Positions 25,845 to 47,128 of a stretch of 64,000 nt of DNA are shown here, one piece after another. A program made the translations under genes and the position numbers. Each line of letters opens with the position of its first letter. The first letter of the stretch is position 1. This DNA comes from Halovivax limisalsi (GTDB taxonomy: Archaea > Halobacteriota > Halobacteria > Halobacteriales > Natrialbaceae), in NCBI RefSeq assembly GCF_023093535.1, contig NZ_CP095757.1, forward strand, positions 62,001-126,000. Direction: 5' to 3'. The notes beneath the pieces were generated by a model that saw nothing but the letters and a program-made list of their open reading frames with translations, searched no databases and was not told the DNA's origin.

Positions 25845-27800
25845 TCAGGACCCGACGATGGTCTGGTGGATCGCCGTCACGTCGGCCGGCGTGATATCGC
25901 CGTCTTCGTCCAGGTCCGCACAGTCCTCGTCGAAGGTGTCGGGTTCGAGGCCCGCGATGAAGCGCTGGGTCTTCGTCGCGTCGAGCGAGGACACCTGCCC
26001 GTCGCCGTCGACGTCACCCGGCAGCTCACAGCCGGGGTCGGACTCGTCCGATTGGATCTCGACCGGCACCGAGTCGCCGTGATCCGAGCTGCTGACCGTC
26101 ACCTCCCCGGAGCCGGCGTCGCCGGGCTTCGTGCTCCAGGTCAACTGGATCGACGTCGACTCGTTCGCCTCGAGCGAGACGGACGCCGAATCGGCGGTCA
26201 TCCCACCGAGATCGGCGAGCTCGACCGTCTGCTCGCCGCTCGCGTCGCCGACGTTCTCGACGGTGGCGTCGACGACCAGGTCCTCCCCCTCGGTCACGGG
26301 CGAGTTCGTCCCCGCGACCTCGACGTCGAACTCGGCCACGCCCGGCTCGGCGGCCAGCTGCACGGCCTCGTAGGCGTCGACGATTCCCATGCCGTAGCGG
26401 GAGTCCCGCCCGGTCTCGGGGTTGAAGTGGTCCGCCTCGGATGGGTCCCAGGAGTCCGGCTTCCAGGTCGACTCGAGGATGACGTCCTTGACCGCTCGCG
26501 GCCCGAGGTCCGGGTTCGCGGACAGGACCAGCGCCGCGACGCCGGTCACGTGCGGCGTCGCCATCGAGGTCCCTTGCAGGGTGCAGTACTCGCCCTCCTG
26601 ACAGCCGAGCATCCAGGCGTCCGGCGCACGCGCGCTGTAAATGGCCACGCCCGGCGCGGCCGCGTCGGGAACGATGAACTCGCCGGGCCAGTGGTCGTAG
26701 TAGTTCCCGTCGAAGTCGCCCTCGCTCACGAGGTCGCCGCTGGAGAACAGCGCGATCTCCCGTTCCTCGTTCGTCGCCCCAACCGAGATCGAGTCGTACG
26801 CCGCGGCGGGGGTGATGACCGACCCCTCGTTTTCGTTTCCGCTTCCCGCGACGACGAGCGTGCCCGCCTCCATCGTGTTGTGGACGACGTCGGCGAACGT
26901 GCCGAGCTCGGTCGTGCCGAGGCTGAAGTTGATGACGTCCGAGTCCGTCTCGACTGCCCACTCGAACGCCGCCATCACGTCGGCGTCGGCGCAACTCCCG
27001 GTGGAATCACAGACTTTCGCGTGCGCGAGGTCGGCGTCGGGCGCGACGCCGATCGCCGTTCCCGATGCGTCGCCGCCAGCGATCGTCCCGCTGACGTGCG
27101 TGCCGTGACCCATGCGGTCGACCGGCTCGCTCTCGTTGTTGAAGATGTCGTTCCAGCCGTTTTCCTCGGTGAGATCGATGTCCTGGTGGTCGGCGTGGAC
27201 GCCCGTATCGGCGACCACGACGCGGACGCCCTCGCCCGTCGCGCCGAGTTCCTCCCAGGCCTCCGTGACGTTCAGTTGATCGAGTCCGTAAGTGACGTGG
27301 TCGTCCCGGGGCTCGACAGGATTCGACACGGGTACCAGGTCGGGAACCTCGAATTCGACGGTCGGCTCGAGACGCTCGACGCCGTCGATCGCCGCCAGCG
27401 TCTCGAGGTCGACCCGATCGAGATCGGCCGTCACCCGGACGCTGTTGCGAATCCAGAAGGTGTCCTCGACGGCGACCCCGTCGAGGCGCTCGAGCTCGGC
27501 GACCACCGGCTCCTGGGTCACCGCGGCTCGGGCCTTCAACGCGTCGACCACCGCGTCCGGTCCGCCCTGCAGGTCGGTCGTCGCGACGCCCGGCAATACC
27601 AGCCAGAGTTCAGTCGGGCCCGTTTCATCGTTAAGCGATGCGTCGATCGTCGCCGTCGTCGGATCGTCCGATACCGTCTCGGTGGTCGTCGCAGACGACG
27701 GGAGCGGGCCGCTCGCCCCCGCACCGAGGGGCGCGAAAATCGCGCCGGCCATCGCGACCGCGAGCAGTACGGCGATCAGTGTCGTGCGTTGACTTCTCAT
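25845..27800 (-). CDS. Secreted subtilisin-like (S8) protease with CARDB-like domain and dockerin
   Basis: This 651-residue protein has a signal peptide (1-30), an I9-like propeptide (about 50-150) and an S8 catalytic domain (about 165-485). Asp198, His232 and Ser412 form the triad, with oxyanion Asn322. A CARDB-like adhesion module (about 487-582) precedes a C-terminal dockerin (about 590-651) with loops DVDGDGQVSSLD and DLDEDGDITPAD, each preceded by a Cys. ATG 27800 opens the signal peptide. It has no cohesin and no membrane anchor, so it is the simplest client type. A 5-bp hairpin lies 12 nt before the ATG, at the predicted transcript start. It is the first gene upstream of the scaffoldin. 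The substrate is unknown. Confidence 0.92.
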   Translation of the reverse strand: MRSQRTTLIAVLLAVAMAGAIFAPLGAGASGPLPSSATTTETVSDDPTTATIDASLNDETGPTELWLVLPGVATTDLQGGPDAVVDALKARAAVTQEPVVAELERLDGVAVEDTFWIRNSVRVTADLDRVDLETLAAIDGVERLEPTVEFEVPDLVPVSNPVEPRDDHVTYGLDQLNVTEAWEELGATGEGVRVVVADTGVHADHQDIDLTEENGWNDIFNNESEPVDRMGHGTHVSGTIAGGDASGTAIGVAPDADLAHAKVCDSTGSCADADVMAAFEWAVETDSDVINFSLGTTELGTFADVVHNTMEAGTLVVAGSGNENEGSVITPAAAYDSISVGATNEEREIALFSSGDLVSEGDFDGNYYDHWPGEFIVPDAAAPGVAIYSARAPDAWMLGCQEGEYCTLQGTSMATPHVTGVAALVLSANPDLGPRAVKDVILESTWKPDSWDPSEADHFNPETGRDSRYGMGIVDAYEAVQLAAEPGVAEFDVEVAGTNSPVTEGEDLVVDATVENVGDASGEQTVELADLGGMTADSASVSLEANESTSIQLTWSTKPGDAGSGEVTVSSSDHGDSVPVEIQSDESDPGCELPGDVDGDGQVSSLDATKTQRFIAGLEPDTFDEDCADLDEDGDITPADVTAIHQTIVGS

Positions 27801-27812
27801 GAATCGTGTCAC

Positions 27813-27827
27813 ACCTCTCGGCGAGGT
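27813..27827 (-). promoter_or_regulatory. 5'-end hairpin before protease gene at 25845
   Basis: Inverted arms ACCTC and GAGGT (5 bp) enclose a 5-nt loop, ending 12 nt upstream of the ATG. A TATA-like TTTATA sequence at about 27847-27854 is about 24 bp upstream, so the hairpin would sit at the very 5' end of the mRNA. Confidence 0.5.
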
Positions 27828-28091
27828 AATCGGCATATTTTTTCTACTATAAAATTAGTTGCTGCAATGGCTAATATTGACTATATTTTCTTAGGTACTA
27901 GTGTAATAAGTACATAAAACGGCTCGTGGGTGCGAACTGTACCGGACGATCTGGGAATCGGTCCGCCCGACGGGGTCGCTCGCGTCACGCTGGGCGGCCC
28001 GGTCGAGGAAGGTAAGAACGAAACGAAATACAACGTGGATCGCGACACCGGCTGGCGCTTACGCGGGGCGTTCCCCGCGCAAGAGCCGGCC

Positions 28092-30818
28092 TCAGCCCGT
28101 CATCCCGACGATGATCTGCTGGATCTGGGTCACGTCCGCCGGCGTGATCTCGCCGTCGCCGTTCAGATCCGCACAGGCCTCGTTGAAGGTGCCCGGATCC
28201 ATCCCGACGATGTGCTGCTGGGTCTTCGTCGCGTCGATGGAGGTCACCTGTCCGTCGCCGTCCACGTCGCCCGCGAGCGCGCAATCGGACTCGCCGACGG
28301 CGAAGGACCCATCCAGGTACTCCGCGGGTTCGACGATCTCGTCCTCGGTGTTGAGCCGGGTAAACTCGGTGTCGAAGGTGAGATCCGTCGCGTCACCCGC
28401 CGAGCCGACCGCCTCGAACGTCAGGTTCGCGAGCGTCGGTGCGTCGGTGCCCTGGGCCGCGCTGGCCGAGAGCGTCAGCGTCCCGTTCTCGGCGTTGACC
28501 GTCGGGTCCGGAAGGTCGACGCCAGCGGCCTCGACGAACGAGACGACCGACGGATCGTAGTCGATACGGGCCTGGTAGCCCGCGATGCCGTCGAGGTCCG
28601 AATCGAGCGAAACCGTCGCCGTCTGGCCCGCACTCGCCTCGGCCTCACCCAGCCGGATGAAGCCCTCCTCCGGTGGCTCGTCCGCCTCGATGGTGAGCGA
28701 GCCGTCGGCGTATTCCGTGGGCTGGACGATCGCATCCTCGGTGTTGAGCTGCGTCTCCGACTCCGCGAACGCCAGGTCCGTCGAGTCGCCAGCCGACCCG
28801 ACCGCCTCGAAGGTCAACTCGGCGAGCGTGGGCGCATCCACACCCTGCGCCTGACTCGCCGAGAGCGTCAGCGTCCCGTTCTCGTCGTTGACGGTCGGAT
28901 CGTTGATGTCGACGCCCGACGCCTCGACGAAGTCGAATGCGCTGGCGTCGTAGCTGATCTGGGCCTGGTAGCCCGCGATGTCGTCGAAGTCGGTGTCGAG
29001 GTCGACCGTCACTTCCTCACCGGCTGCGACGCTGGCCGATCCCAGCCGGATGACGCCCTCCTCCGGCGGCTCGTCGCTCTGAATCTCGACCGTCGCGGTG
29101 TCGCTCTGGTCGCCGCTGCTGACGGTCACCTCGCCGGAACCGGCGTCGCCGACGTCGGTGTTCCAGGTCAGCTCGATCGACGTCGACTCGCCGGCGTCGA
29201 GCGAGACCGACTGGCTGTCGACGACCGCACCGTCGAAGTCGGCGAGTTCGATCGTGTCGTCACCGCTCCCGTCGCCGACGTTCTCGACCGTGGCGTCGAC
29301 GACGAGGTCCTCGCCCTCGGTCACGGGCGCGTTCGTCCCGTCGATCGAGACGGCGAACTCGGCCTCGCCCGGGGGCTCGGCGACCTGACTCACGGCCTCG
29401 TAGGCGTCGACGATGCCGACGCCGTACCGGGAGTCGCGCCCGGTGTCCGGATTGTAGTGCTGGGCCTCGCCGGGGTCCCAGTCCTCGGGTTTCCAGGCCG
29501 CCTCCATCAAGACGTCCTTGACCTCGTACGGACCGAGGTCGGGATCGGCCGACATGACCAGCGCGGCGATCCCCGAGGAGTGGGGCGTCGCCATCGACGT
29601 GCCGCTGACGCGGCAGTACTCGGCGTCACCACAGTCGGCCATGCTACCGCCCGAGTGAGCGCTGTAAATGTTAACGCCGGGCGTAGTGACGTCCGGCGCG
29701 ATGTACTCCTCGTCCTCGGGCCAGTGACTCATCCACTCGCCCAGCTGGAAGTCCTCCGGCGTGATCAACTTGCCACTCGAGAATCCGGCGACACTGTGGT
29801 TCTCGTGAATGGCACCGGCGGCGACGGAGTCCCACGGTGCGGCCGGCGAGATGACGGTTCCTTCCCCGCTGTTGCCGGCGCCAGCGACGACGAGCGTTCC
29901 CGCGTCCATCGTGTTGTAGACGGGCTCGATGTAACTCCCGTACGGCGTGCCACCCAGACTGAAGTTGAGAATGTCCGAATCCGTTTCGACCGCCCACTCG
30001 AAGGACTCCATGATGGCCTGCGAGTCGCAGGATTGGCCCGGGCAGACGCGCACGGCCCCGATCTCGACGTCGGGCGCGACGCCGATGGCGGTTCCCGAGG
30101 CGTCGCCGCCCGAGATCGTCCCGGTGACGTGGGTCCCGTGGCCGAAGGTGTCGACCGGCTCCGAGGAGTCGCCGGTCGCGTCGTACCAGCCGTCCTCCTC
30201 GGCGAGTTCGATGTCGGGGTGGTCGGCGACGACGCCGGTGTCGGCGACCGCGACGCGGATGCCCTCGCCGGTCACGTCGAAGTCCTCCCACACCTCGGGC
30301 GCGTTGATCGCGTCGAGACCCCAGGTGGGCTCGCCAGTACCGGCCTCGGCCGGCGTCGCACCATCGGGTTCGGGCACCTCGAGGGTCGGCGCCGGCAGGA
30401 TGCGCTCGACGCCGTCGATCGCCGCCAGCGTCTCGAGGTCGATTTCGTCCAGATCCGCCGTCACGAGCACGCTGTTGCGGATCCAGAACGTATCCCGGAC
30501 GGACACCGCATCGTACTCATCCAGCGCGTCGAGCACCGGTCCCTGGGTCCGCTCGGCGGTCGACTTCAGCGCCGATTCCACCGCGTCCGGACCGGCCTGC
30601 CGGGTCGACGCGTCGATGTCCGGCAGGTACAGGAAGAGGTCGGTCTCTCCGGATTCGTCGAAGAGCGATTCGTCGATCTGCGCCGTCGCGTCGGCTGCGT
30701 CCGCGGGCTCGGTAGACTGCGACTCGAGCGTGGTCGGGCTCGCCGCTCCCAGCGGAGCGAAGACGGCCCCGAGCAGCACCACAGCCAGTACGACGGCAGT
30801 ACATCGGTTCGTGTTCAT
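28092..30818 (-). CDS. Secreted subtilisin-like (S8) protease with CARDB-like domain, two cohesins and dockerin
   Basis: This 908-residue protein has a signal peptide (1-27), an I9-like propeptide (about 45-145) and an S8 domain (about 160-480), with the triad Asp193, His227, Ser408 and oxyanion Asn316. A CARDB-like module (about 485-580) is followed by two cohesin-like modules (about 588-712 and 718-842) and a dockerin (about 846-908; loops DVDGDGQVTSID and DLNGDGEITPAD). Carrying both cohesins and a dockerin, it could dock to a scaffold and recruit further dockerin proteins. ATG 30818 starts the signal peptide; a frame extending to 30842 is not needed. Its promoter region has a CCATC/GATGG hairpin at the predicted transcript start. 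The N-terminal half is close to that of the protein at 33089. Confidence 0.92.
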   Translation of the reverse strand: MNTNRCTAVVLAVVLLGAVFAPLGAASPTTLESQSTEPADAADATAQIDESLFDESGETDLFLYLPDIDASTRQAGPDAVESALKSTAERTQGPVLDALDEYDAVSVRDTFWIRNSVLVTADLDEIDLETLAAIDGVERILPAPTLEVPEPDGATPAEAGTGEPTWGLDAINAPEVWEDFDVTGEGIRVAVADTGVVADHPDIELAEEDGWYDATGDSSEPVDTFGHGTHVTGTISGGDASGTAIGVAPDVEIGAVRVCPGQSCDSQAIMESFEWAVETDSDILNFSLGGTPYGSYIEPVYNTMDAGTLVVAGAGNSGEGTVISPAAPWDSVAAGAIHENHSVAGFSSGKLITPEDFQLGEWMSHWPEDEEYIAPDVTTPGVNIYSAHSGGSMADCGDAEYCRVSGTSMATPHSSGIAALVMSADPDLGPYEVKDVLMEAAWKPEDWDPGEAQHYNPDTGRDSRYGVGIVDAYEAVSQVAEPPGEAEFAVSIDGTNAPVTEGEDLVVDATVENVGDGSGDDTIELADFDGAVVDSQSVSLDAGESTSIELTWNTDVGDAGSGEVTVSSGDQSDTATVEIQSDEPPEEGVIRLGSASVAAGEEVTVDLDTDFDDIAGYQAQISYDASAFDFVEASGVDINDPTVNDENGTLTLSASQAQGVDAPTLAELTFEAVGSAGDSTDLAFAESETQLNTEDAIVQPTEYADGSLTIEADEPPEEGFIRLGEAEASAGQTATVSLDSDLDGIAGYQARIDYDPSVVSFVEAAGVDLPDPTVNAENGTLTLSASAAQGTDAPTLANLTFEAVGSAGDATDLTFDTEFTRLNTEDEIVEPAEYLDGSFAVGESDCALAGDVDGDGQVTSIDATKTQQHIVGMDPGTFNEACADLNGDGEITPADVTQIQQIIVGMTG

Positions 30819-30838
30819 TTGTAATATTTCGAAGGTAA

Positions 30839-30852
30839 CCATCTCTCGATGG
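30839..30852 (-). promoter_or_regulatory. 5'-end hairpin before protease gene at 28092
   Basis: Arms CCATC and GATGG pair around a 4-nt loop, ending 20 nt upstream of the ATG. A TAATTAA box at 30874-30880 lies about 25 bp further upstream, placing the hairpin at the predicted mRNA 5' end. Confidence 0.5.
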
Positions 30853-31039: not shown

Positions 31040-32953
31040 TCAGGCCGCGAAGCCGACGATCGCCTGGTGGATCGCCGTCACGTCCGCCGGCGTTATCGCG
31101 CCGTCGTCGGTCAGGTCCGCACAGTTCTCGTCGAAGGTGCCCGGATCGAGGCCGGCGATGTGCTGCTGGGTCTTCGTCGCGTCCAGCGAATTTACTTCGC
31201 CGTCGCCGTCGACGTCACCGGGCCGTTCGCAGCCGGGGTCGGATTCGTCCGGTTCGATTTCGACGGCCGCCGAAGCGGTGTCGTTTTCGCTGCTGACGGT
31301 CACCTCGCCGGAGCCAGCGTCGCCGACGTCGGTGTTCCAGGTCAGCTCGACCGTCGTCGACGCGCCCGCCTCGAGCGAGACCGACCGGCTGTCGACGACC
31401 GCGCCGTCGAAGTCGGCCAGTTCGATCGTCTCGTCACCGCTCTCGCCGCCGACGTTCTCGACCGTCGCGTCGACGACCAGCTCGTCGCCCTCGGTCACGG
31501 GCGCGTTCGTCCCGTCGATCGAGACGTCGAACTCGGCGGGTTCGGGTTCGCCCGCTCGCTCGACCGCCGCGTAGGCGTCGACGATGCCGACGCCGTACCG
31601 GGAGTCCCGACCGGTGTCGGGGTTGTAGTGCTGGGCCTCGTTCGGATCCCAGTCGTCGGGCTTCCAGGCCGTCTCCATCATGATGTCTTTGACCTCCCAG
31701 GCGGTCAGGTCTGGATTCGCCGAGAAGATCAGGGCCGCCGTGCCGGCCTTGTGCGGCGTCGACATCGACGTCCCGGCCTTCTCCTCGTACTCGCCGCCGG
31801 GGACGGCGCTCAGCACCAGGAAGCCGGGCGCCGCGAGGTCCGGCTTGATGTAGCCGCCGTCGGGCCAGTGGTCGAGATAGTTGTCGCCGAAGTCACTCTC
31901 CGTCAGCTTGTCGCCGCCGGAGGTGCCGGTTACGGCCAGGTTTTCGGCGATCGACCCGCTACCGACCGTGTCGTACCCCGAACCGGGTTCACCCGCCGTT
32001 CCCTCGCCGTTGTTCCCCATCGAGGAGACGACGAGCGTGCCCGCGTCCATCGTGTTGTAGACGACCTCGGAGTACATGCCGGTCGTCTGGCCGCTGAGAC
32101 TCATGCTGATGACGTCCGAGTCGGTCTCGACGGCCCACTCGAAGGCTTCGACGAGCGGGTCGGGACCGGTTCCGTCACCGCCGAGGACGCGCGCGTGCGC
32201 GAGTTCGACGCCGGGAGCCACGCCGATCGCCGTTCCGGAGGCGTTGCCGCCGGCGACCGTTCCGCTGACGTGCGTGCCGTGGTCGTTGCTATACTCCGGC
32301 GTGTCGGAGCCCTGAGCCGGGTCCAGCCAGCCGTCCTCCTCGGCGAGATCGATATCCGGATGGGTCGGATCGACGCCGGTGTCGGCGACGACGACGCGAG
32401 CGCCCTCGCCGGTCACGCCGAACTCCTCCCAGACGTCCGGGGCGTTGATCGCGTCCAGCCCCCAGGTGACGTGATCGTCGGTCGGTTCGGGGTCGGGGTT
32501 CTCGGCGACCGGTTTCGGCGTCTCGATCGTCGCCCGCGGCTCGATGCGCTCGACGCCGTCGATCGCCGCCAGCGTCTCGAGGTCGATTTCGTCCAGATCC
32601 GCCGTCACGAAGACGCTATTTCGGATCCAGTACGTCGCCTCGACCGTCACCGCGTCGTAGCGTTCGACCGCCTCGATAACCGGCTCCTGGGTCCGTTCGG
32701 CCGTCGACTGCAGGGCCGAGACGACCGCGTCCGGCCCGCCCCGGCGCTCGACGGCGGGTACGTCCGGTAACACCAGGTGGAGTTGGGTCTCGCCGGACGC
32801 GTTCGAAAGCGATTCGTGTACTGACGCCGCGTCCGTCGCCGCGTCGTCGGCGGACGACAACGGGTGCGTCGCCGCACCGAGCGGGACGAACATCGTCCCC
32901 GCCAGCAGCGCGGCGAACAGTACCGCCAGCAGTTGGGTGTTGCTCAATCTCAT
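31040..32953 (-). CDS. Secreted subtilisin-like (S8) protease with CARDB-like domain and dockerin
   Basis: This 637-residue protein has a signal peptide (1-29), a propeptide (about 43-140), an S8 domain (about 160-468) with Asp191, His225, Ser396 and oxyanion Asn314, a CARDB-like module (about 470-568) and a dockerin (about 573-637; loops DVDGDGEVNSLD and DLTDDGAITPAD). It lacks the Cys pair seen in the catalytic domain of several siblings. ATG 32953 is preferred to ATG 32968 because a conserved 5'-leader hairpin (32966-32980) would otherwise overlap the start codon. No own anchor is present, so surface retention would depend on docking. Confidence 0.92.
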   Translation of the reverse strand: MRLSNTQLLAVLFAALLAGTMFVPLGAATHPLSSADDAATDAASVHESLSNASGETQLHLVLPDVPAVERRGGPDAVVSALQSTAERTQEPVIEAVERYDAVTVEATYWIRNSVFVTADLDEIDLETLAAIDGVERIEPRATIETPKPVAENPDPEPTDDHVTWGLDAINAPDVWEEFGVTGEGARVVVADTGVDPTHPDIDLAEEDGWLDPAQGSDTPEYSNDHGTHVSGTVAGGNASGTAIGVAPGVELAHARVLGGDGTGPDPLVEAFEWAVETDSDVISMSLSGQTTGMYSEVVYNTMDAGTLVVSSMGNNGEGTAGEPGSGYDTVGSGSIAENLAVTGTSGGDKLTESDFGDNYLDHWPDGGYIKPDLAAPGFLVLSAVPGGEYEEKAGTSMSTPHKAGTAALIFSANPDLTAWEVKDIMMETAWKPDDWDPNEAQHYNPDTGRDSRYGVGIVDAYAAVERAGEPEPAEFDVSIDGTNAPVTEGDELVVDATVENVGGESGDETIELADFDGAVVDSRSVSLEAGASTTVELTWNTDVGDAGSGEVTVSSENDTASAAVEIEPDESDPGCERPGDVDGDGEVNSLDATKTQQHIAGLDPGTFDENCADLTDDGAITPADVTAIHQAIVGFAA

Positions 32954-32965
32954 GTGTGCTCGTGC

Positions 32966-32980
32966 CATCGTGTCGCGATG
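32966..32980 (-). promoter_or_regulatory. 5'-end hairpin before protease gene at 31040
   Basis: Arms CATCG and CGATG pair around a 5-nt loop, ending 12 nt before ATG 32953. An AT-rich box (TTTATTTA) near 32996-33006 is about 20-25 bp upstream. Confidence 0.48.
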
Positions 32981-33088
32981 ACTCGTCCCGGAACTAAGTT
33001 TATTTAGTAAAAATAGTTTCTGAGAAAATACGAGTAGTGTCACGATCTGCCGCAACCGAAACGGGTTCACACCGGGGTTAGACGGCCC

Positions 33089-35095
33089 TCAACTTCCGAT
33101 CCCGACGATGATCTGCTGGATCCGGGTCACGTCTGCGGGCGTGATCTCGCCGTCACCGTTCAGATCCGCACAGGCTTCGTTGAAGGTGCCGGGATCCATG
33201 CCCACGATGTGTTGCTGGGTCTTCGTCGCGTCGATCGACGTCACCTGCCCGTCGCCGTCCACGTCGCCCGGCAGTTCACAGGCGGACTCGCCGACAGCGA
33301 TGCTGCCGTCGAGGTACTCCGCGGGCTCGACCATGCTATCTTCCGTATAGAGTCGCGTGAACTCGGTATCGAAGACCAGGTCGGTGGCATCACCTGCCGA
33401 GCCGACCGCCTCGAAGGTTACCTCGGCGAGCGTCGGCGCGTCCACGCCCTGGGCCTGACTCGCCGACAGCGTCAGCGTCCCGTTCTCGTCGTTGACCGTC
33501 GGATCGTTGATGTCGACGCCCGACGCTTCGACGAACGAGACAACGGACGGATCGTAGTCGATGCGCGCCTGGTAGCCGGCGATGCCCTCGAGGTCGGTGT
33601 CCAGCGAAACCGTCGCGGTGTCACCTTCGGCCGCGGTAGCGTTGCCGAGCCGGAGGAACCGCTCCGTCGGCGGATCGGGCTCGGTGACCCGGCTCACGGC
33701 GGCGTGCAGATCGATGCTGCCGACCCCGTACCGGGAGTCGTGCCCGGTTTCCGGGTCGTGGTACTGCGCCTCGGTCGGGTCCCAGTCGTCCGGCTTCCAG
33801 GCCGTCTGCGCCAGCAGCTCCCGGATCGCCCAGCTGTCGACGGTCGGATCGGCCGAGCGTATCGTCGCCGCGGCACCCGCCACGTGCGCCGCGGCCATCG
33901 AAGTGCCGGAAAACTCCTCGTACTCGCCACCCGGCTGGGCACTCAGCACGTAGACGCCGGGCGCCACGACGTCCGGCGCGACGTACGACTCCTCGGGCCA
34001 GTGGTCCATCCAGTTCCCGCCGAAGTCGCCCTCGTCCAGCCGGTCGCCGCCGGAGAAATCCGCGACGCCGCCGTCCTCGTCGGTCGCCCCGACGCCGATC
34101 GAGTCGTAGCCGGCGCCCGGCGAGGCGACCGTCCCCTCGCCGTCGCCGCCGATCGACGCCACGACGAGCGTCCCCGCGTCCATCGCGTTGTAGACGGCGT
34201 CGACGGTATCGCCGGTGACCGATCCGGGGATGGCCAGATTGATGACGTCCGCGTCAGTCTCGACGGCCCACTCGATCGATCCGAGGATCGCGTCCAGCGG
34301 ACAGCCGTCCACCTCGCAGACCCTGGCGACGCCGAGTTCGGCGTCTGGCGCGACGCCGATCGCGGTGCCCGTGGCGTTTCCGCCGACGAGGGTCCCGCTG
34401 ACGTGCGTGCCGTGGCCGCTGTCGTCGACCGGGTCGTCGGCATCGCCGACGAGATCGATCCAGCCGTCCTCGTCGGCGAGGTCGATATCGGGATGGTCGG
34501 CGTCGACGCCCGTGTCGGCGACGACGACGCGGGCGCCCTCGCCAGTCACGCCGAACTCACCCCAGACGTCCGGGGCGTTGATCGCGTCCAACCCCCAGGT
34601 GACGTGATCGTCCTGCGAGTGCGCGACCGACGTCGCCTCGACGGGTTCGGGCGCCGGAACCGAAACGTGAGGTTCGATCCGCTCGACGCCGTCGATCGCT
34701 GCCAGCGTCTCGAGGTCGACCGCGTCGAGATCCGCCGTCACGAGCACGCTGTTGCGGATCCAGAACGTATCCTCGACGGTCACCGAATCGTACTCGTCGA
34801 GCGCGTCGAGCACCGGTCCCTGGGTCCGCTCGGCGATCGACTTCAGCGCCGATTCTACCGCCTCGGGATCGGTCTGTCGGGTCGCCTCGCCGACGTCCGG
34901 CAGATATAGGAAGAGGTCGGTCTCTCCCGATTCGTCGAAGAGTGAGTCGTCGATCTGTGCCGTCGCGTCGGCCACGTCCGCGGGCTCGGTGGCCTGGGGA
35001 TCGAGCGTTGTCGGGCTCGCCGCTCCTAGCGGTGCGAAGACGGTCCCGAGCACCAGGACAGCCAGGACGAGGGCGATAAGTCGTTTCGGAGTCAT
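33089..35095 (-). CDS. S8 protease homologue with altered oxyanion site, cohesin and dockerin (possible pseudo-enzyme)
   Basis: This 668-residue protein has a signal peptide (1-26), a propeptide (about 45-145), an S8-fold domain (about 160-470), one cohesin (about 480-602) and a dockerin (about 606-668). The triad residues Asp194, His228 and Ser399 are present. The oxyanion-hole Asn found in all seven sibling proteases is Gly317 here (SIGGDGEG instead of SIGNxGEG). The substrate-binding SLGG loop has become AIPG, and the motif after the nucleophile reads GTSMAAAH instead of GTSMxxPH. Activity is therefore probably reduced or lost. It may be a structural or regulatory decoy that still docks. 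It has no CARDB module, unlike its nearest relatives at 28092 and 31040. The promoter is AT-rich but lacks the hairpin seen upstream of most siblings. Confidence 0.9.
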   Translation of the reverse strand: MTPKRLIALVLAVLVLGTVFAPLGAASPTTLDPQATEPADVADATAQIDDSLFDESGETDLFLYLPDVGEATRQTDPEAVESALKSIAERTQGPVLDALDEYDSVTVEDTFWIRNSVLVTADLDAVDLETLAAIDGVERIEPHVSVPAPEPVEATSVAHSQDDHVTWGLDAINAPDVWGEFGVTGEGARVVVADTGVDADHPDIDLADEDGWIDLVGDADDPVDDSGHGTHVSGTLVGGNATGTAIGVAPDAELGVARVCEVDGCPLDAILGSIEWAVETDADVINLAIPGSVTGDTVDAVYNAMDAGTLVVASIGGDGEGTVASPGAGYDSIGVGATDEDGGVADFSGGDRLDEGDFGGNWMDHWPEESYVAPDVVAPGVYVLSAQPGGEYEEFSGTSMAAAHVAGAAATIRSADPTVDSWAIRELLAQTAWKPDDWDPTEAQYHDPETGHDSRYGVGSIDLHAAVSRVTEPDPPTERFLRLGNATAAEGDTATVSLDTDLEGIAGYQARIDYDPSVVSFVEASGVDINDPTVNDENGTLTLSASQAQGVDAPTLAEVTFEAVGSAGDATDLVFDTEFTRLYTEDSMVEPAEYLDGSIAVGESACELPGDVDGDGQVTSIDATKTQQHIVGMDPGTFNEACADLNGDGEITPADVTRIQQIIVGIGS

Positions 35096-35305: not shown

Positions 35306-37117
35306 TCAGCTCTCGATCCCGACGATGATCTGCTGGATCTGGGTCACGTCCGCCGGCGTGATCTCGCCGTCGCCGTTCAGATCCGCACAGGCTTCGTTGA
35401 AGTTGCCGGGGTCCATACCCACGATGTGCTGCTGAGTCTTCGTCGCGTCGATCGACGTCACCTGCCCGTCGCCGTCCACGTCGCCCGGCAGTTCACAGGC
35501 GGACTCGCCGACGGTGACGCTGCCGTCGAGGTACTCCGCGGGCTGGACGATCGCGTCCTCGGTGTTGAGCCGGGTAAACTCGGTGTCGAAGGTGAGATCC
35601 GTCGCGTCACCCGCCGAGCCGACCGCCTCGAACGTCAGGTTCGCGAGCGTCGGCGCGTCCACGCCCTGGGCCTGGCTCGCCGACAGCGTCAGCGTCCCGT
35701 TCTCGGCGTTGACCGTCGGATCGTTGATGTCCACGCCAGCGGCCTCGACGAACGCGACGACCGACGGATCGTAGTCGATGCGAGCCTGGTAGCCCGCGAT
35801 GTTCTCGCGGTCCGTATCGAGCGAAACCGTCGCCGTCTGGCCCGCACTCGCCTCGGCCTCACCCAGCCGGATGAAGCCCTCCGGCGGCGTATCGGTTTCG
35901 ACCGCGATGGAGCCCGCGACGTACTCGGCGGGCTGGACGATCGCGTCCTCGGTGTTGAGTTGCGTGAAGTCGGCGTCGAAGGTGAGGTCGGTCGCCTCAC
36001 CCGTCGAGCCGACCACCTCGAAGGTCAGGTCCGCGAGCGTCGGCGCGTCGACGCCGTTCGTCTGGCTCGCCGAGAGCGTCAGCGTGCCCTCGTCGTCGTT
36101 GACCGTCGGGTCGGCGATGTCGACGCCCGACGCTTCGACGAACGAGACGACGGACGGATCGTAGTTCAGCCGGGCCTGGTAGCCGGCGATGTTCTCGAGG
36201 TCGGTATCGAGCGAGACGGTCGCCGTCTGGCCTTCGGCCGCCGTCGCGTCACCGGCGCGGATGAATCCCTCGTCCGGCGTCGGGTTCACGTGCGCGACGG
36301 CGCTGGCCAGCAGCGAGGCGGCGGCGTCGGTGTGGGCGGTGGCGTTGGCGTACTGGTTGAGGCCCGAGGAGGCCGCGAGGACGGTGGCGCTCGAATCGTC
36401 GACCGCGAGGCCGACGCCCTTCGTCTCGCCGTCCACGGAGACGTCGGCGATGGCGTCGAACGTCGTCCCGTTGATCCAGGCGTGATCGGCGAACGGCTCG
36501 GTGTGGATCGGGATCGACTCGCCGACGGCGTAGTCCTCGACGATCGGGTGCGAATCCGTCACGACGTAGTTCGGCCCGTCCGCGCTCTCGTTCGGATCGT
36601 AGTCGCCCTCGACCCGATCGACGGCGTCGCTGACGGAAGCGAACTGTTCGACGCCGTTGGCGTCCTGGCTCGCCTCGTTCCACTGATCGAGGTAGACGAC
36701 GCCGACGTCGGCACTACTCGTCGCCTCGACGAAGTCTTCGACGGCGGCGTCGTCGATGTGCTGGACGACGTAGACGCTGTAGCCGGCGCCGGCAGCCTCG
36801 TCGCCGGAGACGACCTCCGCGCTGATTTCGCCCCCGGAGGCGTCCTCGATCATGCCGGCGACGTCGGCCGCGTACGCGCCGTCGCCGACGACGCCGACAG
36901 TGACCGCCGCGGTCGAAGCGACCTCGTTCGTCGATTCGGAACCGTGTTTCGCGATCGATGCGTCGATGTCGTCCGCGCCAGATACTGCTGTCGCCGATGC
37001 GCCGACGTCCGTCGACGTCGCGGTCCCGCTGACCGCCCCCGCGATCGGCGCGAAGGTCGCGCCCACGAGGAGCAAAGCCAGCGAAACGGCGAGCAGTCGA
37101 GTCATATTCCGCTTCAT
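35306..37117 (-). CDS. Non-enzymatic adaptor: uncharacterised alpha/beta domain, two cohesins and dockerin
   Basis: This 603-residue secreted protein has a signal peptide (1-29) but no protease domain. Residues about 70-280 match the uncharacterised domain found in the island proteases at 15632, 44242 and 47329, with a VGVVGDGAYAADVAGMIE start, a YSVYVVQHID strand, and GVVYLDQW. Two cohesins (about 284-408 and 414-538) and a dockerin (about 542-603) follow. That layout is what an adaptor scaffoldin would need: it can bind a scaffold through its dockerin and hold two more clients. ATG 37117 begins the signal peptide (MKRNMTRLLAVSLALLL); 37132 adds five residues. The alpha/beta domain loosely recalls ThuA/class I amidotransferase-like folds, but I cannot assign an activity. 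Confidence 0.88.
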   Translation of the reverse strand: MKRNMTRLLAVSLALLLVGATFAPIAGAVSGTATSTDVGASATAVSGADDIDASIAKHGSESTNEVASTAAVTVGVVGDGAYAADVAGMIEDASGGEISAEVVSGDEAAGAGYSVYVVQHIDDAAVEDFVEATSSADVGVVYLDQWNEASQDANGVEQFASVSDAVDRVEGDYDPNESADGPNYVVTDSHPIVEDYAVGESIPIHTEPFADHAWINGTTFDAIADVSVDGETKGVGLAVDDSSATVLAASSGLNQYANATAHTDAAASLLASAVAHVNPTPDEGFIRAGDATAAEGQTATVSLDTDLENIAGYQARLNYDPSVVSFVEASGVDIADPTVNDDEGTLTLSASQTNGVDAPTLADLTFEVVGSTGEATDLTFDADFTQLNTEDAIVQPAEYVAGSIAVETDTPPEGFIRLGEAEASAGQTATVSLDTDRENIAGYQARIDYDPSVVAFVEAAGVDINDPTVNAENGTLTLSASQAQGVDAPTLANLTFEAVGSAGDATDLTFDTEFTRLNTEDAIVQPAEYLDGSVTVGESACELPGDVDGDGQVTSIDATKTQQHIVGMDPGNFNEACADLNGDGEITPADVTQIQQIIVGIES

Positions 37118-37128
37118 GGATGGATGGG

Positions 37129-37144
37129 CCATCTGGTCCGATGG
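37129..37144 (-). promoter_or_regulatory. 5'-end hairpin before adaptor gene at 35306
   Basis: Arms CCATC and GATGG pair around a 6-nt loop, 11 nt upstream of ATG 37117. An ATTATA box at 37168-37173 is about 26 bp upstream of the outer end. Confidence 0.5.
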
Positions 37145-37328: not shown

Positions 37329-39299
37329 CTAGGTCGAGGCGCCGACGATCGTCTGGTGGATCGCGGTGACGTCCGCCGGCGTAATTTGGCCGTCGCCGGT
37401 CAGGTCCGCACAGGCCTCCTCGAAGGTGCCCGGATCCAGACCGGCGATGTGTTGCTGGGTCTTCGTCGCGTCGAGCGAGGACACCTGCCCGTCGCCGTCG
37501 ACGTCGCCCGGCAGCTCACAGCCGGGATCGGACTCATCCGGGTCGATCTCGACCGACGCCGAGTCGCTGTGGTCGCCGCTGCTGACGGTCACCTCGCCGG
37601 AGCCGGCGTCTCCGGACTCCGTACTCCAGTTCAGTTCGACCGTCGTCGACGCGCCCGCCTCGAGCGCGACCGACTGACTGTCGACGACAATCCCGTCGAA
37701 GTCGGCGAGTTCGATCGTGTCGTCACCGCTCGCGTTACCGACGTTCTCGATGATCGCGTCGACGGTCAGGTTCTCGCCTTCCGTCACCGGCGCGTTCGTG
37801 CCGTCGATCGAGACGGCGAATTCGGCTTCTTCGGGCGGGCCCGGATCGGCGACCTGGCTCACGGCCTCGTAGGCGTCGACGATGCCGACGCCGTACCGGG
37901 AGTCGCGTCCGGTATCCGGGTTGTAGTGCTGGGCCTCGTCGGGGTCCCAATCGTCGGGCTTCCAGGTCGATTCGGGGAGTTGCTCTCTGAGTTCCCACGG
38001 GCCGAGGGAGGGGTCCGCCGACAGGGCCAGCGCCGCGATACCGGTCATGTGCGGCGTCGCCATCGACGTGCCGCTGACCTCGCAGTACTCCGCACCGTCA
38101 CAGCCGGGCATCTGCCCGTTGGCGGAGTTCGCGCTGTAGACGTCGACGCCGGGCGTGGCCGCGTCGGGGACGATGTAGGATCCCTCCGGCCAGCGGTCCC
38201 GCCAGAGGCCGCCGAAGTCGCTCTCCTCGATCTTGTCGCCGCTCGAGAACCCGGCGACGCTACGGTTCTCCGCGACGGCCCCGACGGAGAGCGAATCCCA
38301 GGGAGCGGCGGGCGAGATGGCGTCGCCGTCACCCTCGTTTCCGGCGCCGGCGACGACGAGCGTGCCCGCGTCCATCGTATTGTAGACTGACTCGGCGTAG
38401 ATGCCGTACGCCCCGACGCCGAGGCTGTAGTTGACGATGTCCGAGTCGGTCTCGACGGCCCACTCGAACGATTCGACGATCGCATCGCTGGAGCACCCCA
38501 GGGCGTTACAGACCCTGACTGCCCCGATCTCGACGTCGGGCGCGACGCCGATCGCCGTCCCCGAGGCGTTACCGCCGGAAATCGTTCCGGTGACGTGCGT
38601 GCCGTGGCCGAAGTCGTCGACCGGTTCCGCGGAGTCGCTCATCGGATCGTACCAGCCGTCCTCCGCCGCGAGTTCGACGTCGGGGTGGTCGGTGTAGACG
38701 CCGGTGTCCGCGACGGCGACGCGAACGCCCTCGCCAGTTGCCCCGAAGTCCTCCCAGACCTCGGGCGCGTCGATCAGATCCAGTCCATAGGTGACGTTGT
38801 CGTCACGCGCATCGTCGGCCGGCGTCGCCTCGACGGGCTCGGGGGCGTCGAAGACGACGTTGGGTTCGATGCGCTCGACGCCGTCGATCGTGGCGAGCGT
38901 CTCCAGGTCGATCTCGTCGAGGTCGGCGGTGACGAGGACGCTGTTGCGAATCCAGAAGGTCTCTTCGACCGTCACGGCGTCGTAGTCATCGAGCGCCTCG
39001 ATGACCGGACCCTGCGTTCGGTCGGCCGTCGACTGCAGCGCGTCGACCACCGCGTCGGGCCCGCCCCGCCGGTCGACCTCGGGCGCGTCCGGAAGAACGA
39101 GGAACAGTTCCGTCTCGCCGGATTCGTTCGAGAGGGAATCGTGAATCTCGGCCGCGTCCGTCGGAGACGGGGAGCCAGGGTCGATGCCCGTCTTCGAACC
39201 GAGCGACGGCTCGGCTGTTACCCCCGGCGGTGAGAATACGACACCGATCAGGAGCGCGGCGAACAGTACGGCGATGAGTTGCGTCGTGCGCGCGTTCAT
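37329..39299 (-). CDS. Secreted subtilisin-like (S8) protease with CARDB-like domain and dockerin
   Basis: This 656-residue protein has a signal peptide (1-29), a propeptide (about 48-150) and an S8 domain (about 165-485) with Asp198, His232, Ser412 and oxyanion Asn321. A CARDB-like module (about 488-588) precedes the dockerin (about 593-656; loops DVDGDGQVSSLD and DLTGDGQITPAD). The catalytic domain has Cys pairs (near residues 264-269 and 400-406) that could form disulphides, uncommon in haloarchaeal proteins but shared with several siblings. ATG 39299 opens the signal peptide MNARTTQLIAVLFAALLIG. It is the next gene downstream of the three-cohesin anchor at 39619, on the same strand, but has its own promoter and leader hairpin. 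Confidence 0.92.
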   Translation of the reverse strand: MNARTTQLIAVLFAALLIGVVFSPPGVTAEPSLGSKTGIDPGSPSPTDAAEIHDSLSNESGETELFLVLPDAPEVDRRGGPDAVVDALQSTADRTQGPVIEALDDYDAVTVEETFWIRNSVLVTADLDEIDLETLATIDGVERIEPNVVFDAPEPVEATPADDARDDNVTYGLDLIDAPEVWEDFGATGEGVRVAVADTGVYTDHPDVELAAEDGWYDPMSDSAEPVDDFGHGTHVTGTISGGNASGTAIGVAPDVEIGAVRVCNALGCSSDAIVESFEWAVETDSDIVNYSLGVGAYGIYAESVYNTMDAGTLVVAGAGNEGDGDAISPAAPWDSLSVGAVAENRSVAGFSSGDKIEESDFGGLWRDRWPEGSYIVPDAATPGVDVYSANSANGQMPGCDGAEYCEVSGTSMATPHMTGIAALALSADPSLGPWELREQLPESTWKPDDWDPDEAQHYNPDTGRDSRYGVGIVDAYEAVSQVADPGPPEEAEFAVSIDGTNAPVTEGENLTVDAIIENVGNASGDDTIELADFDGIVVDSQSVALEAGASTTVELNWSTESGDAGSGEVTVSSGDHSDSASVEIDPDESDPGCELPGDVDGDGQVSSLDATKTQQHIAGLDPGTFEEACADLTGDGQITPADVTAIHQTIVGAST

Positions 39300-39618: not shown

Positions 39619-41490
39619 TCATCGTCGTCGAGTCACCAGCGCGAACGCGAGCACGGCCGTCACCCCGGCCACGACGCCGAATCCGGGGATGCTGTCGCCC
39701 GATCCGGTGTCGGGACCCGTGGCATCGGCACCGTCGGCTCCGTCGTCGCCACCGTCGGACTGGTCGCCGTCCGACGCTCCGTCGTCACCCTCGTCCGATC
39801 GGTCGTCGCTCTCGTCCGACCGGTCCGTCGACTCCGTGACCTCGATCGATCCGAGCGACTCGTCGTTGAGCGACAGGGCGTACGTTCCCGCCGATTCGAA
39901 CGTGTGCTCGAACGTGACCGTCGTCGACGCCCCGCCGTCGAGCGAGACCGTTTCGGTGACGATCGCCGCCGACTCGTTCGCCAGCGTCAGTTCGTACTCG
40001 CCAGCCTCCTCGCCGACGTTGGTGACCGCCACCGGCACCTCGATCGACTCGCCGACCGTAAGCGTCGAGACCGGGGCCTTCTGGATCTCGAACTCGAACT
40101 CGGCCGGGTCGGGCGTCGGCGGCGGGAGGGTCGGGCCGCCACCGCCGTCGTCCGAATCCTCCTCGACGGAAACGGTCGTTCCATTGTAGTCGACTGGGAC
40201 CCGTTCGCTCTCGTTATTGACGAGGGAGTCCGCCTCGACGAATTCGAGGTCCGTCTCGCCCGCCTCGACGACGTCGAACGCGATCGTCGCGAGCGTCGGT
40301 GCGTCGACGCCCGTGGCCTGGCTTTGCGTGATGGAGACCCAACCCGACTCGTTGTCGACGTTCGTCACCGGGTCGGCCATGTCGACGCCCGAAACGGACG
40401 CGACCTCGACGACCCCGGGGTCGAACGTTACGTTGGCCTGGTAGCCGGCCGTATTCGCGACCGTCGTCTCGAGCGTGACGGGGATCCGCTCGCCATCCTG
40501 CTCGCCCGCCACGAGCGAGAGCGTCTCCGTCGGCGACTCGTCATCACCCTCGTCCTCGACGGAAATGGTCGTGCCGACCGGCTCGAACGGGATCGGCTCC
40601 GGCGGCGACTGCCCGTCGTTCAGCGTCGTGTCCGCCCCGACGAACGACAGCTCCGTCTCACCCGTCGCGGCCACGTCGAACGTGATCTCGGCCAGTTCGG
40701 GCGCGTCGATACCGCTCGCCTGGCTCTGCGTGAAGAATACCCAGCCGTCCTCGTTGTTGACGTTCGTCGTCGGATCGCTCATGTCCACGCCCGAGACGGA
40801 CGCGACCTCGACGATATCCGGATCGAACGTGACGTTCGCCCCGTAGCCCGCGACGTCTGTGGCGTTCGTCCGGGCTGTGACCGTGACCTGGTCACCGTCT
40901 TGCTGGCCAGCCTCGAGCGAGAACGTATTTTCGGGCGGCTCCTCGCCGCCATCGCCCTCGACGGATATGGTCGTGCCGACCGGCTCGAACGGGATCGGCT
41001 CCGGCGGCGACTGACCGTCGTTCATCGTCGTCTCCCGCTCGACGAACGCCAGTTCCGTCTCGCCTGCCGCAAGGACATTGAACGTGATCGCTGCGAGTTC
41101 GGGCGAGTCGATCCCGCTCGCTTGACTCTGCGTGAAGAAGACCGACCCGTTGGCGTTGTCGATGTTCGTCACCGGATCGCTCATATCGACGCCCGAGACC
41201 GACTCGACCTCGACGATATCCGGATCGAACGTCACTTCAGCACCGTAGCCCGCCACGTCTGTGGCGTTCGTCCGGGCCGTCACGGTAATCTGATCGCCAT
41301 CCTGTTCCCCCGCCACGAGCGAGAAGGCGTTCTCGGTCGAATCGCCAGTTCCGTCGATCGGCTCGTCGGCTGACAGTTCGCGCACGTCGACCGCACCAGC
41401 GGCCGGCACGATCAACCCGATGCCGACCAGCGCGATCGTGACGACGAGCACGACGTCCACCGCGTTCACCCCATCGGTCCTTTCTAACAC
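39619..41490 (-). CDS. Three-cohesin surface scaffoldin with PGF-CTERM-like anchor
   Basis: This 623-residue protein starts at GTG 41490 with a hydrophobic export segment (about residues 10-33). It has three cohesin modules (about 56-189, 190-323, 324-445), each close in sequence to the giant scaffoldin. A Gly/Pro linker is followed by a CARDB-like domain (about 460-560), a Ser/Asp/Gly-rich stalk and an IPGF motif (601-604) with a hydrophobic helix and Arg-Arg-Arg end. It is a smaller sibling of the 14-cohesin protein. Module order (two AGYGA types, then one AGYQA type) repeats the order seen at the end of each four-module block there. It is probably surface-anchored through archaeosortase processing. 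Confidence 0.9.
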   Translation of the reverse strand: MLERTDGVNAVDVVLVVTIALVGIGLIVPAAGAVDVRELSADEPIDGTGDSTENAFSLVAGEQDGDQITVTARTNATDVAGYGAEVTFDPDIVEVESVSGVDMSDPVTNIDNANGSVFFTQSQASGIDSPELAAITFNVLAAGETELAFVERETTMNDGQSPPEPIPFEPVGTTISVEGDGGEEPPENTFSLEAGQQDGDQVTVTARTNATDVAGYGANVTFDPDIVEVASVSGVDMSDPTTNVNNEDGWVFFTQSQASGIDAPELAEITFDVAATGETELSFVGADTTLNDGQSPPEPIPFEPVGTTISVEDEGDDESPTETLSLVAGEQDGERIPVTLETTVANTAGYQANVTFDPGVVEVASVSGVDMADPVTNVDNESGWVSITQSQATGVDAPTLATIAFDVVEAGETDLEFVEADSLVNNESERVPVDYNGTTVSVEEDSDDGGGGPTLPPPTPDPAEFEFEIQKAPVSTLTVGESIEVPVAVTNVGEEAGEYELTLANESAAIVTETVSLDGGASTTVTFEHTFESAGTYALSLNDESLGSIEVTESTDRSDESDDRSDEGDDGASDGDQSDGGDDGADGADATGPDTGSGDSIPGFGVVAGVTAVLAFALVTRRR

Positions 41491-41708: not shown

Positions 41709-42431
41709 TCAGAATCGGCGTCGAAGCGACGACGCGACGAACAGCGCGCAGATAGCGATCAACGTCGGGACGAGGATCAGGACGGGGATCACCGCGAAGT
41801 GGGCGTCCTCGTCGATGCGAGCACCGGTCGAGCCGTCTCCGGTCGAGCCGGCACCCCCGTCCGTACCGTCGCCGACCGAACCACCGCCGTCGGCACCGTC
41901 GCCGGCACCCCCGGCGGAGACCGTCGTTCCGACAGGATCTACCGGAATCTGTTCGGGCGGCACCTGCCCGTTGTTCACCGTCGAGGCACCGTCGACGAAC
42001 GAGAGTTGCGTCTCGCCCGGTTGCCGAACGGAGAAGGTGATCTCGGCCAGCGTCGGCTGGTCGACCCCGCGAGCCCGACTCTGGGTGAGAAACACCCAGC
42101 CCGCCTCGTTGTTGCGATTGACGATCGGATCGCTCATGTCGACGCCCGAGACCGACTCGACCGCGAGCGCAGCCGGATCGAACGTGACGTTCGCGCCGTA
42201 ACCCGCGACGTCCGTCGCGTCCGTCGAGAGTCGAACCGTGATCCGATCGCTACTTCGCTCGGCGACCGCAAGCGACAGCGTCGCGTTCGACGACTGACGC
42301 TCCATCGCCGCCTCGCCGCTCGCCGGATCGACCCGTTCGTCGACCGCGCCGGCGGGTGAGACGACCAGCAACGCACTCACCAGCACGATCGTGGCGACGA
42401 TCGCCGGTCGTGTCGCGGACGGCCTGCCCAT
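41709..42431 (-). CDS. Single-cohesin membrane-anchored protein
   Basis: This protein of about 240 residues has a signal peptide beginning MGRPSATRPAIVATIVLVSAL, one cohesin-like module (AGYGANVTFDPAALAVESVSG and VFLTQSRARG), a Gly/Ser/Asp-rich stalk and a C-terminal transmembrane helix ending SSLRRRF. Unlike the other anchors it has no PGF motif, so it is more likely held as a plain membrane protein. The start is uncertain: ATG 42467 would add 12 residues. A TATA-like TACATTAT just upstream of 42467 suggests the transcript begins close to that codon, so I prefer 42431 with moderate confidence. It is one of three anchors clustered between the two groups of proteases. Confidence 0.78.
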   Translation of the reverse strand: MGRPSATRPAIVATIVLVSALLVVSPAGAVDERVDPASGEAAMERQSSNATLSLAVAERSSDRITVRLSTDATDVAGYGANVTFDPAALAVESVSGVDMSDPIVNRNNEAGWVFLTQSRARGVDQPTLAEITFSVRQPGETQLSFVDGASTVNNGQVPPEQIPVDPVGTTVSAGGAGDGADGGGSVGDGTDGGAGSTGDGSTGARIDEDAHFAVIPVLILVPTLIAICALFVASSLRRRF

Positions 42432-42694
42432 CGTCTCGAACTCGGGTAGCCACACAGTGGTATCCATGCAGCCATACGATAATGTATCTTTCCAATCTCG
42501 ATATTGAATAGACCACTTGGTAGCTCGAAATGAACGCTCTCTGCGAGCGGTTATCGGACAGCGTCGGCGACTCGCAGGCGAAAGCGAAGATGCACGGATG
42601 GGCGACCGATCCGCCGAGGGTAGCGACGGCCTCGAGTCAGGGCGTCGAACGCCACGGTGTGTCGGCGGTCGCCAGTCGGAATCGCCCCCGATCG

Positions 42695-43321
42695 TCAGTC
42701 GCGACGGGCGCTCGCGGCGACGAGCAGCGCGCAAACGGCGGCCAGCGCGGAGAGGGGTCCAAAGCCTGGAAGGCCGTCGCCCGAGTCGTCCACCTCGAGC
42801 GTGGTGCCATCCAGTTCGGGCGCCAGCATCGTGCTTTCGTTGTTCACGAGCGAGTCGTCGGCGACGAACGCCAACTCCGTCTCGCCCGATTCGACGACGT
42901 CGAACGTGATCTCCGCGAGCGTCGGCGCCTCGGTACTGGTGGCCTGGCTCTGGGTGAACGACACCCAACCCGCCTCGTTGTCGACGTTGACGACCGGATC
43001 GCTCATGTCGACGCCCGAAACCGACTCGACCTGGACGACGTCCGGATCGAACGTGACGTTCGCCTGGTACCCCGCAACCGCTTCGACGTCGGTCTCGAGC
43101 GTGACCGTCGCGCTTCCGTCGCTCGACGAGCCGGAGACGAGCGAGAGCGTCCCGTCGACCTGTTCGGCCTCGACGGCCGCCACCCCGTCAGCGGCGCCGA
43201 TCGTGTCCGTTCGGTCCGCGACGGCCCCGCCGACGGGGCCGAGCGCGGCTCCGACCAACAGAACGCTCAGTGCGATGGCGACGACGGCTATTCGGTTTCG
43301 CTGCGAAAGGTGTTGTAACAC
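42695..43321 (-). CDS. Single-cohesin surface protein with PGF-CTERM-like tail
   Basis: This 208-residue protein starts at GTG 43321 with a signal peptide (about residues 10-35). It has one cohesin module (about 57-180) with AGYQANVTFDPDVVQVESVSG and WVSFTQSQAT, and a very short linker to LPGF at about 183-186, followed by a hydrophobic helix and SARRD. The near absence of a stalk would hold its cohesin close to the membrane, unlike the long-stalked anchors. Its cohesin belongs to the AGYQA subtype, like modules 4, 8 and 12 of the giant scaffoldin. Together with 41709 and 39619 it forms a block of three adjacent anchors. Confidence 0.82.
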   Translation of the reverse strand: MLQHLSQRNRIAVVAIALSVLLVGAALGPVGGAVADRTDTIGAADGVAAVEAEQVDGTLSLVSGSSSDGSATVTLETDVEAVAGYQANVTFDPDVVQVESVSGVDMSDPVVNVDNEAGWVSFTQSQATSTEAPTLAEITFDVVESGETELAFVADDSLVNNESTMLAPELDGTTLEVDDSGDGLPGFGPLSALAAVCALLVAASARRD

Positions 43322-43584: not shown

Positions 43585-44172
43585 TCAGACCGTCGTGCCG
43601 ACGGTCGTCTGGTGGATCGGCGTCACGTCGGCCGGCGTAATCTGGTCGTCACCGTTGAAAACCGCACAGGCCTCGTCGAAGTTGCCGGGTTCGAGACCCG
43701 CGATTTGCTGCTGGGTCTTCGTCGCGTCGAGCGACGACACCTGGCCGTCGCCGTCGACGTCACCGGGGAGGTCACACTCGCCGGGGTCGCCCTCGCCGAC
43801 GTCGACCGTACCGGCGCGGTACGCCGAGGGCTGGACGATTTCGTCGCCAGCCGCCAGCTCCGTGTTCGACTCGTCGAAGCTCAGCTGCGTCGAGTCACCC
43901 GCCGAACCGGTCAGTTCGAACGTCAACTCGGCCAGCGTCGGCCCACCGACGCCCGAAGACTGGCTTGCCGACGCGTCGAGCGTCCCGCTCTCGTCTGTCA
44001 CCTGCGGATCGGGCAGATCGACGCCCGAGGCTGCGACGAAGTCGACGACGCTCGCGTCGTAGCTGATCTCCGCCCGGTACCCCCAGACGTCGGCGCCGTC
44101 CGATTCGAGTTCGACCGTCACCTGCTCGCCCGCCGCGTCCGAAGCGTCGCTCAGCCGGATGTCCGGCTCCAA
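43585..44172 (-). pseudogene. Truncated cohesin-dockerin remnant
   Basis: This frame of up to 195 residues has no signal peptide and only a weak TTG start. It encodes one cohesin (about residues 4-125) and a dockerin (about 133-195) that closely match the C-terminus of the preceding protease gene. The dockerin is eroded: its second calcium loop reads AVFNGDDQITPAD instead of ADLDGDGQITPAD, losing the first acidic ligand. It lies in the same frame as the stop codon of the gene at 44242, separated by 24 codons that include a duplicated T-rich terminator sequence. It is best read as the 3' end of a lost duplicate gene. Translation by read-through or internal initiation is possible but unsupported. 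Confidence 0.75.
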
Positions 44173-47118: not shown

Positions 47119-47128
47119 GGGTGGCTCA

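Follow-up and report, generated by a model that had tools for sequence, protein, structure and literature searches.

The nearest described counterparts of the protein analyzed here are the bacterial adaptor scaffoldins. In its available text, PMC4959524 presents ScaB of Acetivibrio cellulolyticus and of C. clariflavum as amplifiers and also describes monovalent adaptors. Archaeal cohesins and dockerins are reported outside cellulose degradation in the accessible sections of papers on Archaeoglobus fulgidus (PMC9705933) and on ANME archaea (PMC9012536), the latter having proteins that combine a dockerin with up to 5 cohesins. The part of PMC9012536 that cites a 2009 survey states that archaea are without large multi-cohesin scaffoldins. 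Recent haloarchaeal papers, in the portions available, take dockerins as substrate-binding domains (PMC10963439, PMC13260240). No description of a haloarchaeal multi-cohesin scaffoldin was recognized in the openly licensed literature searched.

The window, meaning the whole stretch of DNA that was analyzed (64,000 nucleotides, at 62-126 kb of the 3.89-Mb single-contig genome of Halovivax limisalsi), carries a large island of cohesin and dockerin genes. One of them, the target of this analysis, encodes a secreted protein with two cohesins and a dockerin that is probably an adaptor scaffoldin.

Results

The island extends from 14516 to 50592 and holds 15 ORFs with a cohesin, a dockerin or both, every one on the minus strand. 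Their content amounts to 30 cohesins, 29 recognized by Pfam and 1 by the island's own cohesin profile, and 10 dockerins. Five ORFs have a hydrophobic tail and no dockerin, with cohesin counts of 14, 3, 1, 1 and 1. The giant anchored scaffoldin (19161-25424; 2087 aa, 14 cohesins) ends in a PGF-CTERM-like tail that scores just below the cut-off, and the tail of the three-cohesin anchored scaffoldin (39619-41490) is a PGF-CTERM above it. The single-cohesin proteins lie at 41709-42968 (hydrophobic tail, with an uncertain start codon and an overlap with the next ORF), 42695-43321 and 14516-15559. PGF-type tails were read by eye in the last two, and the cohesin of 14516-15559 is the one missed by Pfam.

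The island also encodes eight S8 proteases, each with a dockerin. All have the Asp/His/Ser motifs, with DSG in place of DTG in one. Proteases 25845-27836, 31040-33070 and 37329-39299 have no cohesin, and the remaining 5 of the 8 add one or two cohesins to the dockerin. Protease 28092-30842 has two cohesins and protease 33089-35095 has one. The others share an S8 / CPreg / GATase-like / cohesin(s) / dockerin layout with one cohesin in 15632-18964, which is of the ancestral-type architecture, one in 44242-47154, and two in 47329-50592, whose layout comes nearest to that of the target plus S8. The GATase-like domains of proteases 44242 and 47329 (44848-45462 and 48316-48930, minus strand) are identical in protein sequence, as are the cohesin cores downstream of them, which suggests a recent gene conversion. 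A cohesin-dockerin stretch at 43585-44172 follows in frame right after the TGA stop of protease 44242-47154; its dockerin is slightly degenerate, and the stretch may be a small gene in its own right or the copy of a tail that the stop has severed.

Chromosomal housekeeping genes (TRM5/TYW2, NMD3 and the Rad51 family) lie to the right of the island, and a Cas1 gene is located close to the window's right-hand end (62451-63446, minus strand). Five dockerins were found off the island in the same genome. Four belong to giant proteins, one of them read incomplete, at about 551, 557, 569 and 1063 kb; these contain PQQ propellers and/or PKD and CARDB domains. The fifth dockerin is weak. The dockerins of the four giants are of the island's Ser-Leu type, and the giants may dock on the same scaffold as non-enzymatic clients.

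The target ORF (35306-37132, minus strand) encodes a secreted protein of 608 aa and measures 620 aa from stop to stop. The earlier note had placed the gene at 35306-37117. That is the right ORF, and the longer frame starts at 37132; position 37117 is an alternative ATG five codons inside it. The protein begins with a probable secretion signal read by eye (residues 1-34, 37031-37132), followed by a linker of about 40 residues, a 210-residue domain (residues 75-284, 36281-36910), cohesin 1 (35942-36241), cohesin 2 (35552-35851) and a dockerin (35330-35488) just before the stop. Pfam matched Cohesin in two stretches (E 4e-18, whole-protein score 66.3 against a cut-off of 24.1) and Dockerin_1 at residues 549-601 (E 2e-10, 41 bits against a cut-off of 22.9). 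Chance can be set aside for these matches, given their E-values. Pfam searches at E up to 1 detected neither Peptidase_S8 nor any other enzyme family. The combination of a dockerin and two cohesins without a protease domain, proposed from the bare sequence, is therefore confirmed above the curated cut-offs. Both modules are present as described, and the 210-aa GATase-like domain at the N terminus had been missed. The cohesin-plus-dockerin tail is common in the island, the target being its protease-free form, and adaptor capacity is not exclusive to the target.

A predicted model of the two cohesins and the dockerin (residues 286-608) has a pLDDT of 85.5 and a pTM of 0.48. The model resembles solved cohesins, with the cohesin dyad of the adaptor scaffoldin ScaA from A. 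cellulolyticus as the best match. At this pTM there is no sign of a fixed intramolecular clasp between cohesin and dockerin, and a model of this kind does not distinguish partners.

The region of residues 75-284 is modeled as a separate folded domain (pLDDT 93) and is common to the target and to S8 proteases of its own and other haloarchaea. It had no Pfam family above the cut-off, and a sequence search of the PDB up to E 10 was empty as well. Fold comparison, which included a Foldseek run, aligned 187 residues with the ThuA-like protein 1t0b (Z 17.4, rmsd 2.9) and also matched class I glutamine amidotransferases (Z about 15) and domains of the IFT52 and GMP-synthetase types. The modeled domain thus has a ThuA/class I GATase-like fold, its exact family not being pinned down by these matches. 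Domain residue 75 is an Asp in all 27 rows compared, and a His at residue 121 occurs in 25 of them. A role as an amidotransferase is unlikely because no row has a cysteine (0/27) and the catalytic Cys of the GATases is missing; another activity is conceivable. Haloarchaeal S8 proteases commonly carry this domain as an accessory, as seen at 21 of 21 loci.

The descent of the target was traced through this domain. A genome contig collection was scanned with an alignment of the target N-terminal domain alone, with no S8 sequence included, and 21 loci were returned; S8 lies upstream in the same frame at every one of them. The whole target protein as query returned zero loci from the same collection. 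In 125 genomes of the family the domain was matched 82 times, in 49 genomes. S8 status was examined in the short frames, the remaining 77 matches sitting in frames longer than 900 aa. Two matches occur in S8-less frames shorter than 650 aa, namely the target and a 558-aa frame of a sister species. Another three short frames, of 724, 814 and 893 aa, were rejected as S8-less copies. Two of them run off the contig end; for the third, the S8 end is in a different frame that overlaps it and is likewise cut by the end of the contig.

The sister-species ortholog consists of the GATase-like domain, one cohesin and a dockerin, and has no S8 domain. In a tree of 33 GATase-like domains it forms one clade with the target (100/99) among S8-bearing rows. 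The nesting of these two S8-less genes as a single clade within S8-bearing copies makes it most likely that the S8-CPreg part was lost once, in the common ancestor of the two genes; the tree yields the number of changes, and its direction rests on the presence of S8 in the other copies. The suggestion that a protease domain had been lost is borne out to this extent. Residues 35-76, which follow the signal, were aligned locally to the eight proteases as a possible prodomain remnant and scored no better than shuffles. The target signal peptide beats shuffles against all eight proteases, but this similarity is weak evidence of descent because shuffling destroys the hydrophobic run.

Of the 477 residues compared between the target and its ortholog, 34% differ. 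The dN/dS ratio (NG86) is about 0.37 overall, and by part it is 0.26 for the GATase-like domain, 0.34 for cohesin 1 and 0.35 for the dockerin. The most conserved part is the GATase-like domain, with 73% identity. An overall value of 0.37 indicates a gene that is kept under purifying selection and hence a protein that is maintained. Within the island, the two target cohesins are 82% identical to each other in DNA, and the target tail shares 85% DNA identity with that of protease 28092. These identities fit a history of duplication and exchange of tail cassettes.

The island cohesins fall into two classes by carrier. In a tree of 57 rows from three species, one branch parts the 37 cohesins of dockerin-free, hydrophobic-tailed carriers from the 20 cohesins of dockerin-bearing carriers. 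The split is supported at 100/99 with flanks and at 99/97 in a rerun on domain cores alone, made to rule out linker effects, the bootstrap being not fully settled. An initial tree of 76 rows, from which 19 rows of other genera and off-island loci were later dropped, also explained the carrier split by one change, with a support of only 65. In a held-out test, profiles built from the other two species placed 30 of 30 window cohesins in the correct carrier class. Both target cohesins clearly belong to the dockerin-borne class and score normally for it. A division into anchor and dockerin-borne cohesins would be the pattern expected of a two-tier scaffold with different partners, with the qualification that class is not specificity. 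It resembles the division of cellulosomes into anchoring and enzyme-binding cohesins.

One cohesin position was compared between the classes. It presumably corresponds to residue 39 of the C. thermocellum cohesin. Among 30 dockerin-borne cohesins, 18 carry Gln here, 10 carry Glu and 2 another residue; among 46 anchor cohesins, 22 carry Gly, 20 Gln and 4 another residue. The giant scaffoldin interleaves two anchor subtypes at this position, AGYG in 10 cohesins and AGYQ in 4. An eight-cohesin scaffoldin of the sister species has four of each. The residue that varies between AGYG and AGYQ is probably close to the dockerin contact, and two client specificities on one giant scaffoldin are conceivable. 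The differences between the cohesin classes at this residue are a lead on specificity, not a result.

According to the available text of PMC5772552, recognition in C. thermocellum involves dockerin residues 11-12 and 45-46 and cohesin residues 37, 39, 123 and 125. The island dockerin positions were equated with these sites by eye. The first-repeat pair is Ser-Ile in 3 dockerins, Ser-Leu in 5 and Thr-Tyr in 1. All nine have Pro-Ala as the second-repeat pair, and 1 of the 10 island dockerins is outside the pattern. Ser-Ile occurs in the target and in proteases 28092 and 33089, all of which bear dockerin-borne cohesins, and also in the sister-species orthologs of the target and of protease 28092. 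Two clean dockerin classes paralleling the cohesin classes were not found in the island; Ser-Ile versus Ser-Leu is a weak split. In each island dockerin that was read the first half differs from the second, and symmetric dual binding in the manner of type I dockerins is therefore not to be expected. A Cys was seen by eye just before each of the two calcium loops in 24 of 24 dockerins from the genus and one further genome. This pair, a probable disulfide staple, is absent at 7 loci of Natrialba type (Natrialba, Halobiforma and Natronorubrum).

The spread of these genes was surveyed in 293 genomes sampled from the order, and a cohesin was detected in 96 of them with an E-value of 0.001 or lower. 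The window genome has at least 14 cohesins in this sample and a genome of the same genus at least 13, and the next highest count is 5; fuller counts of the islands are 30 and 19. A third species of the genus, seemingly outside the sample, has 8 cohesins at its island, and two more species of the genus have none in the sample. As far as sampled, the expansion is limited to part of one genus. Natrialba, Halobiforma and Natronorubrum have a two-gene unit at 7 of the 21 loci of the contig scan, comprising an S8 / CPreg / GATase-like / cohesin / dockerin protease and a single-cohesin, hydrophobic-tailed protein. The island looks like an expansion of such a module.

Discussion

The best explanation of the target, with a probability of roughly 60%, is that it is a secreted adaptor scaffoldin without proteolytic activity that belongs to a protease complex on the cell surface. 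An adaptor architecture, as proposed in the earlier note, is backed by the domain content, by conservation in a second species and by the split between anchor and dockerin-borne cohesins. Compared with its relatives, the target retains their layout without the S8-CPreg part. Its dockerin would plug into the anchor-class cohesins of the membrane-anchored scaffoldins (the 14-, 3- and single-cohesin proteins), and its two cohesins would take up dockerins of the island proteases. Each adaptor would then convert one anchor site into two, a net gain of one. Cohesin-bearing proteases could do likewise while cutting, and the target would add branching without an extra protease. Retention of the GATase-like domain after the loss of the protease suggests that the domain has a role of its own; it may be a targeting or spacer module, standing in place of the CBM of a clostridial scaffoldin.

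Several points temper the adaptor reading. A dedicated adaptor may add little because 5 of the 8 proteases already have a cohesin plus a dockerin. The doubling of sites is not conserved, since the ortholog has one cohesin. The island dockerins are similar, and two dockerin classes that would match the cohesin classes are not apparent from their sequences. The wider picture, a two-tier, cell-anchored archaeal protease megacomplex whose adaptor tier arose from a protease that shed its catalytic domain and recruited the GATase-like domain for CBM-style targeting, is offered tentatively and has somewhat less than an even chance of being right.

If dockerin-borne cohesins instead bound dockerins of their own type, the island proteins would assemble head to tail into polymers or a mesh without tiers, and the target would be a protease-free link. 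Six island proteins including the target, plus the 43585 fragment, carry a dockerin together with one or more dockerin-borne cohesins, and all three Ser-Ile dockerins are found on proteins with cohesins of this class. Chain formation is nonetheless unlikely, as it leaves the cohesin split by carrier unexplained, yet anchoring and linking classes could share dockerins. The target could also be cargo, with the GATase-like domain as the working part, docked by the dockerin, and the cohesins as leftovers of small import from a protease ancestor. Such a role would accord with the domain being the best conserved part of the protein (dN/dS 0.26, 73% identity) and with its invariant Asp 75 and nearly invariant His 121 (25 of 27 rows). 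It is judged quite improbable, because cohesin 1 is likewise under purifying selection (dN/dS 0.34), the ortholog has one cohesin where the target has two, and the GATase catalytic Cys is missing.

A protein that has a dockerin and no catalytic part might fill anchor sites as a cap or competitor, and so limit or space proteolysis or shield the cell surface. Such a cap would have no need of two cohesins, both of which score as normal members of their class, and there is only a slim chance that this is what the target does. Least credible is a decaying, functionless protease gene: the target does have a shortened protease layout, but its frame is intact, the signal sequence is retained, the S8-less form is common to two species and dN/dS is well below 1.

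The island places a large multi-cohesin scaffoldin in an archaeon, set among proteases, against the absence from archaea reported in the cited part of PMC9012536. The target is a traceable case of an adaptor scaffoldin arising from an enzyme. The dockerins that PMC10963439 and PMC13260240 read as substrate-binding in their available portions may be tethers. Halophilic cohesin-dockerin pairs would also be useful building blocks for enzyme assembly at high salt.

The predicted clients in the island are eight S8 proteases, and the plant-cell-wall-degrading clients by which a cellulosome is recognized are not among them. The C. thermocellum S8 protease with a double dockerin in PDB 8x39/8x3a is taken here to be the protein of PMC12484212. 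Like it, the island S8 proteases have dockerins as their putative tie to a scaffold; as that protein is described in the available text, it is a cellulosome accessory with two dockerins, whereas each island protease has a single dockerin, in many cases accompanied by cohesins. The mucinolysome, in the accessible part of PMC12997984, similarly reuses the cohesin-dockerin logic for a non-cellulose substrate, but it is bacterial and mucin-directed, and the island enzymes are S8 proteases only. Compared with A. fulgidus and ANME archaea, as presented in the excerpts of PMC9705933 and PMC9012536, the island differs in its 14-cohesin anchored scaffoldin, its eight S8 clients and its 30 cohesins at one locus. 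The closest likeness is to the bacterial adaptor scaffoldins as described in the available text of PMC4959524. The target likewise has cohesins and one dockerin without a recognized catalytic domain, anchoring scaffoldins are encoded elsewhere in the genome (the 14- and 3-cohesin proteins with PGF-CTERM-type tails), the target cohesins differ in sequence class from those of the anchors, and the top fold match is an adaptor cohesin dyad. Unlike those proteins, the target is archaeal and protease-derived, has S8 proteases as its predicted binding clients, and carries a GATase-like domain in place of a CBM.
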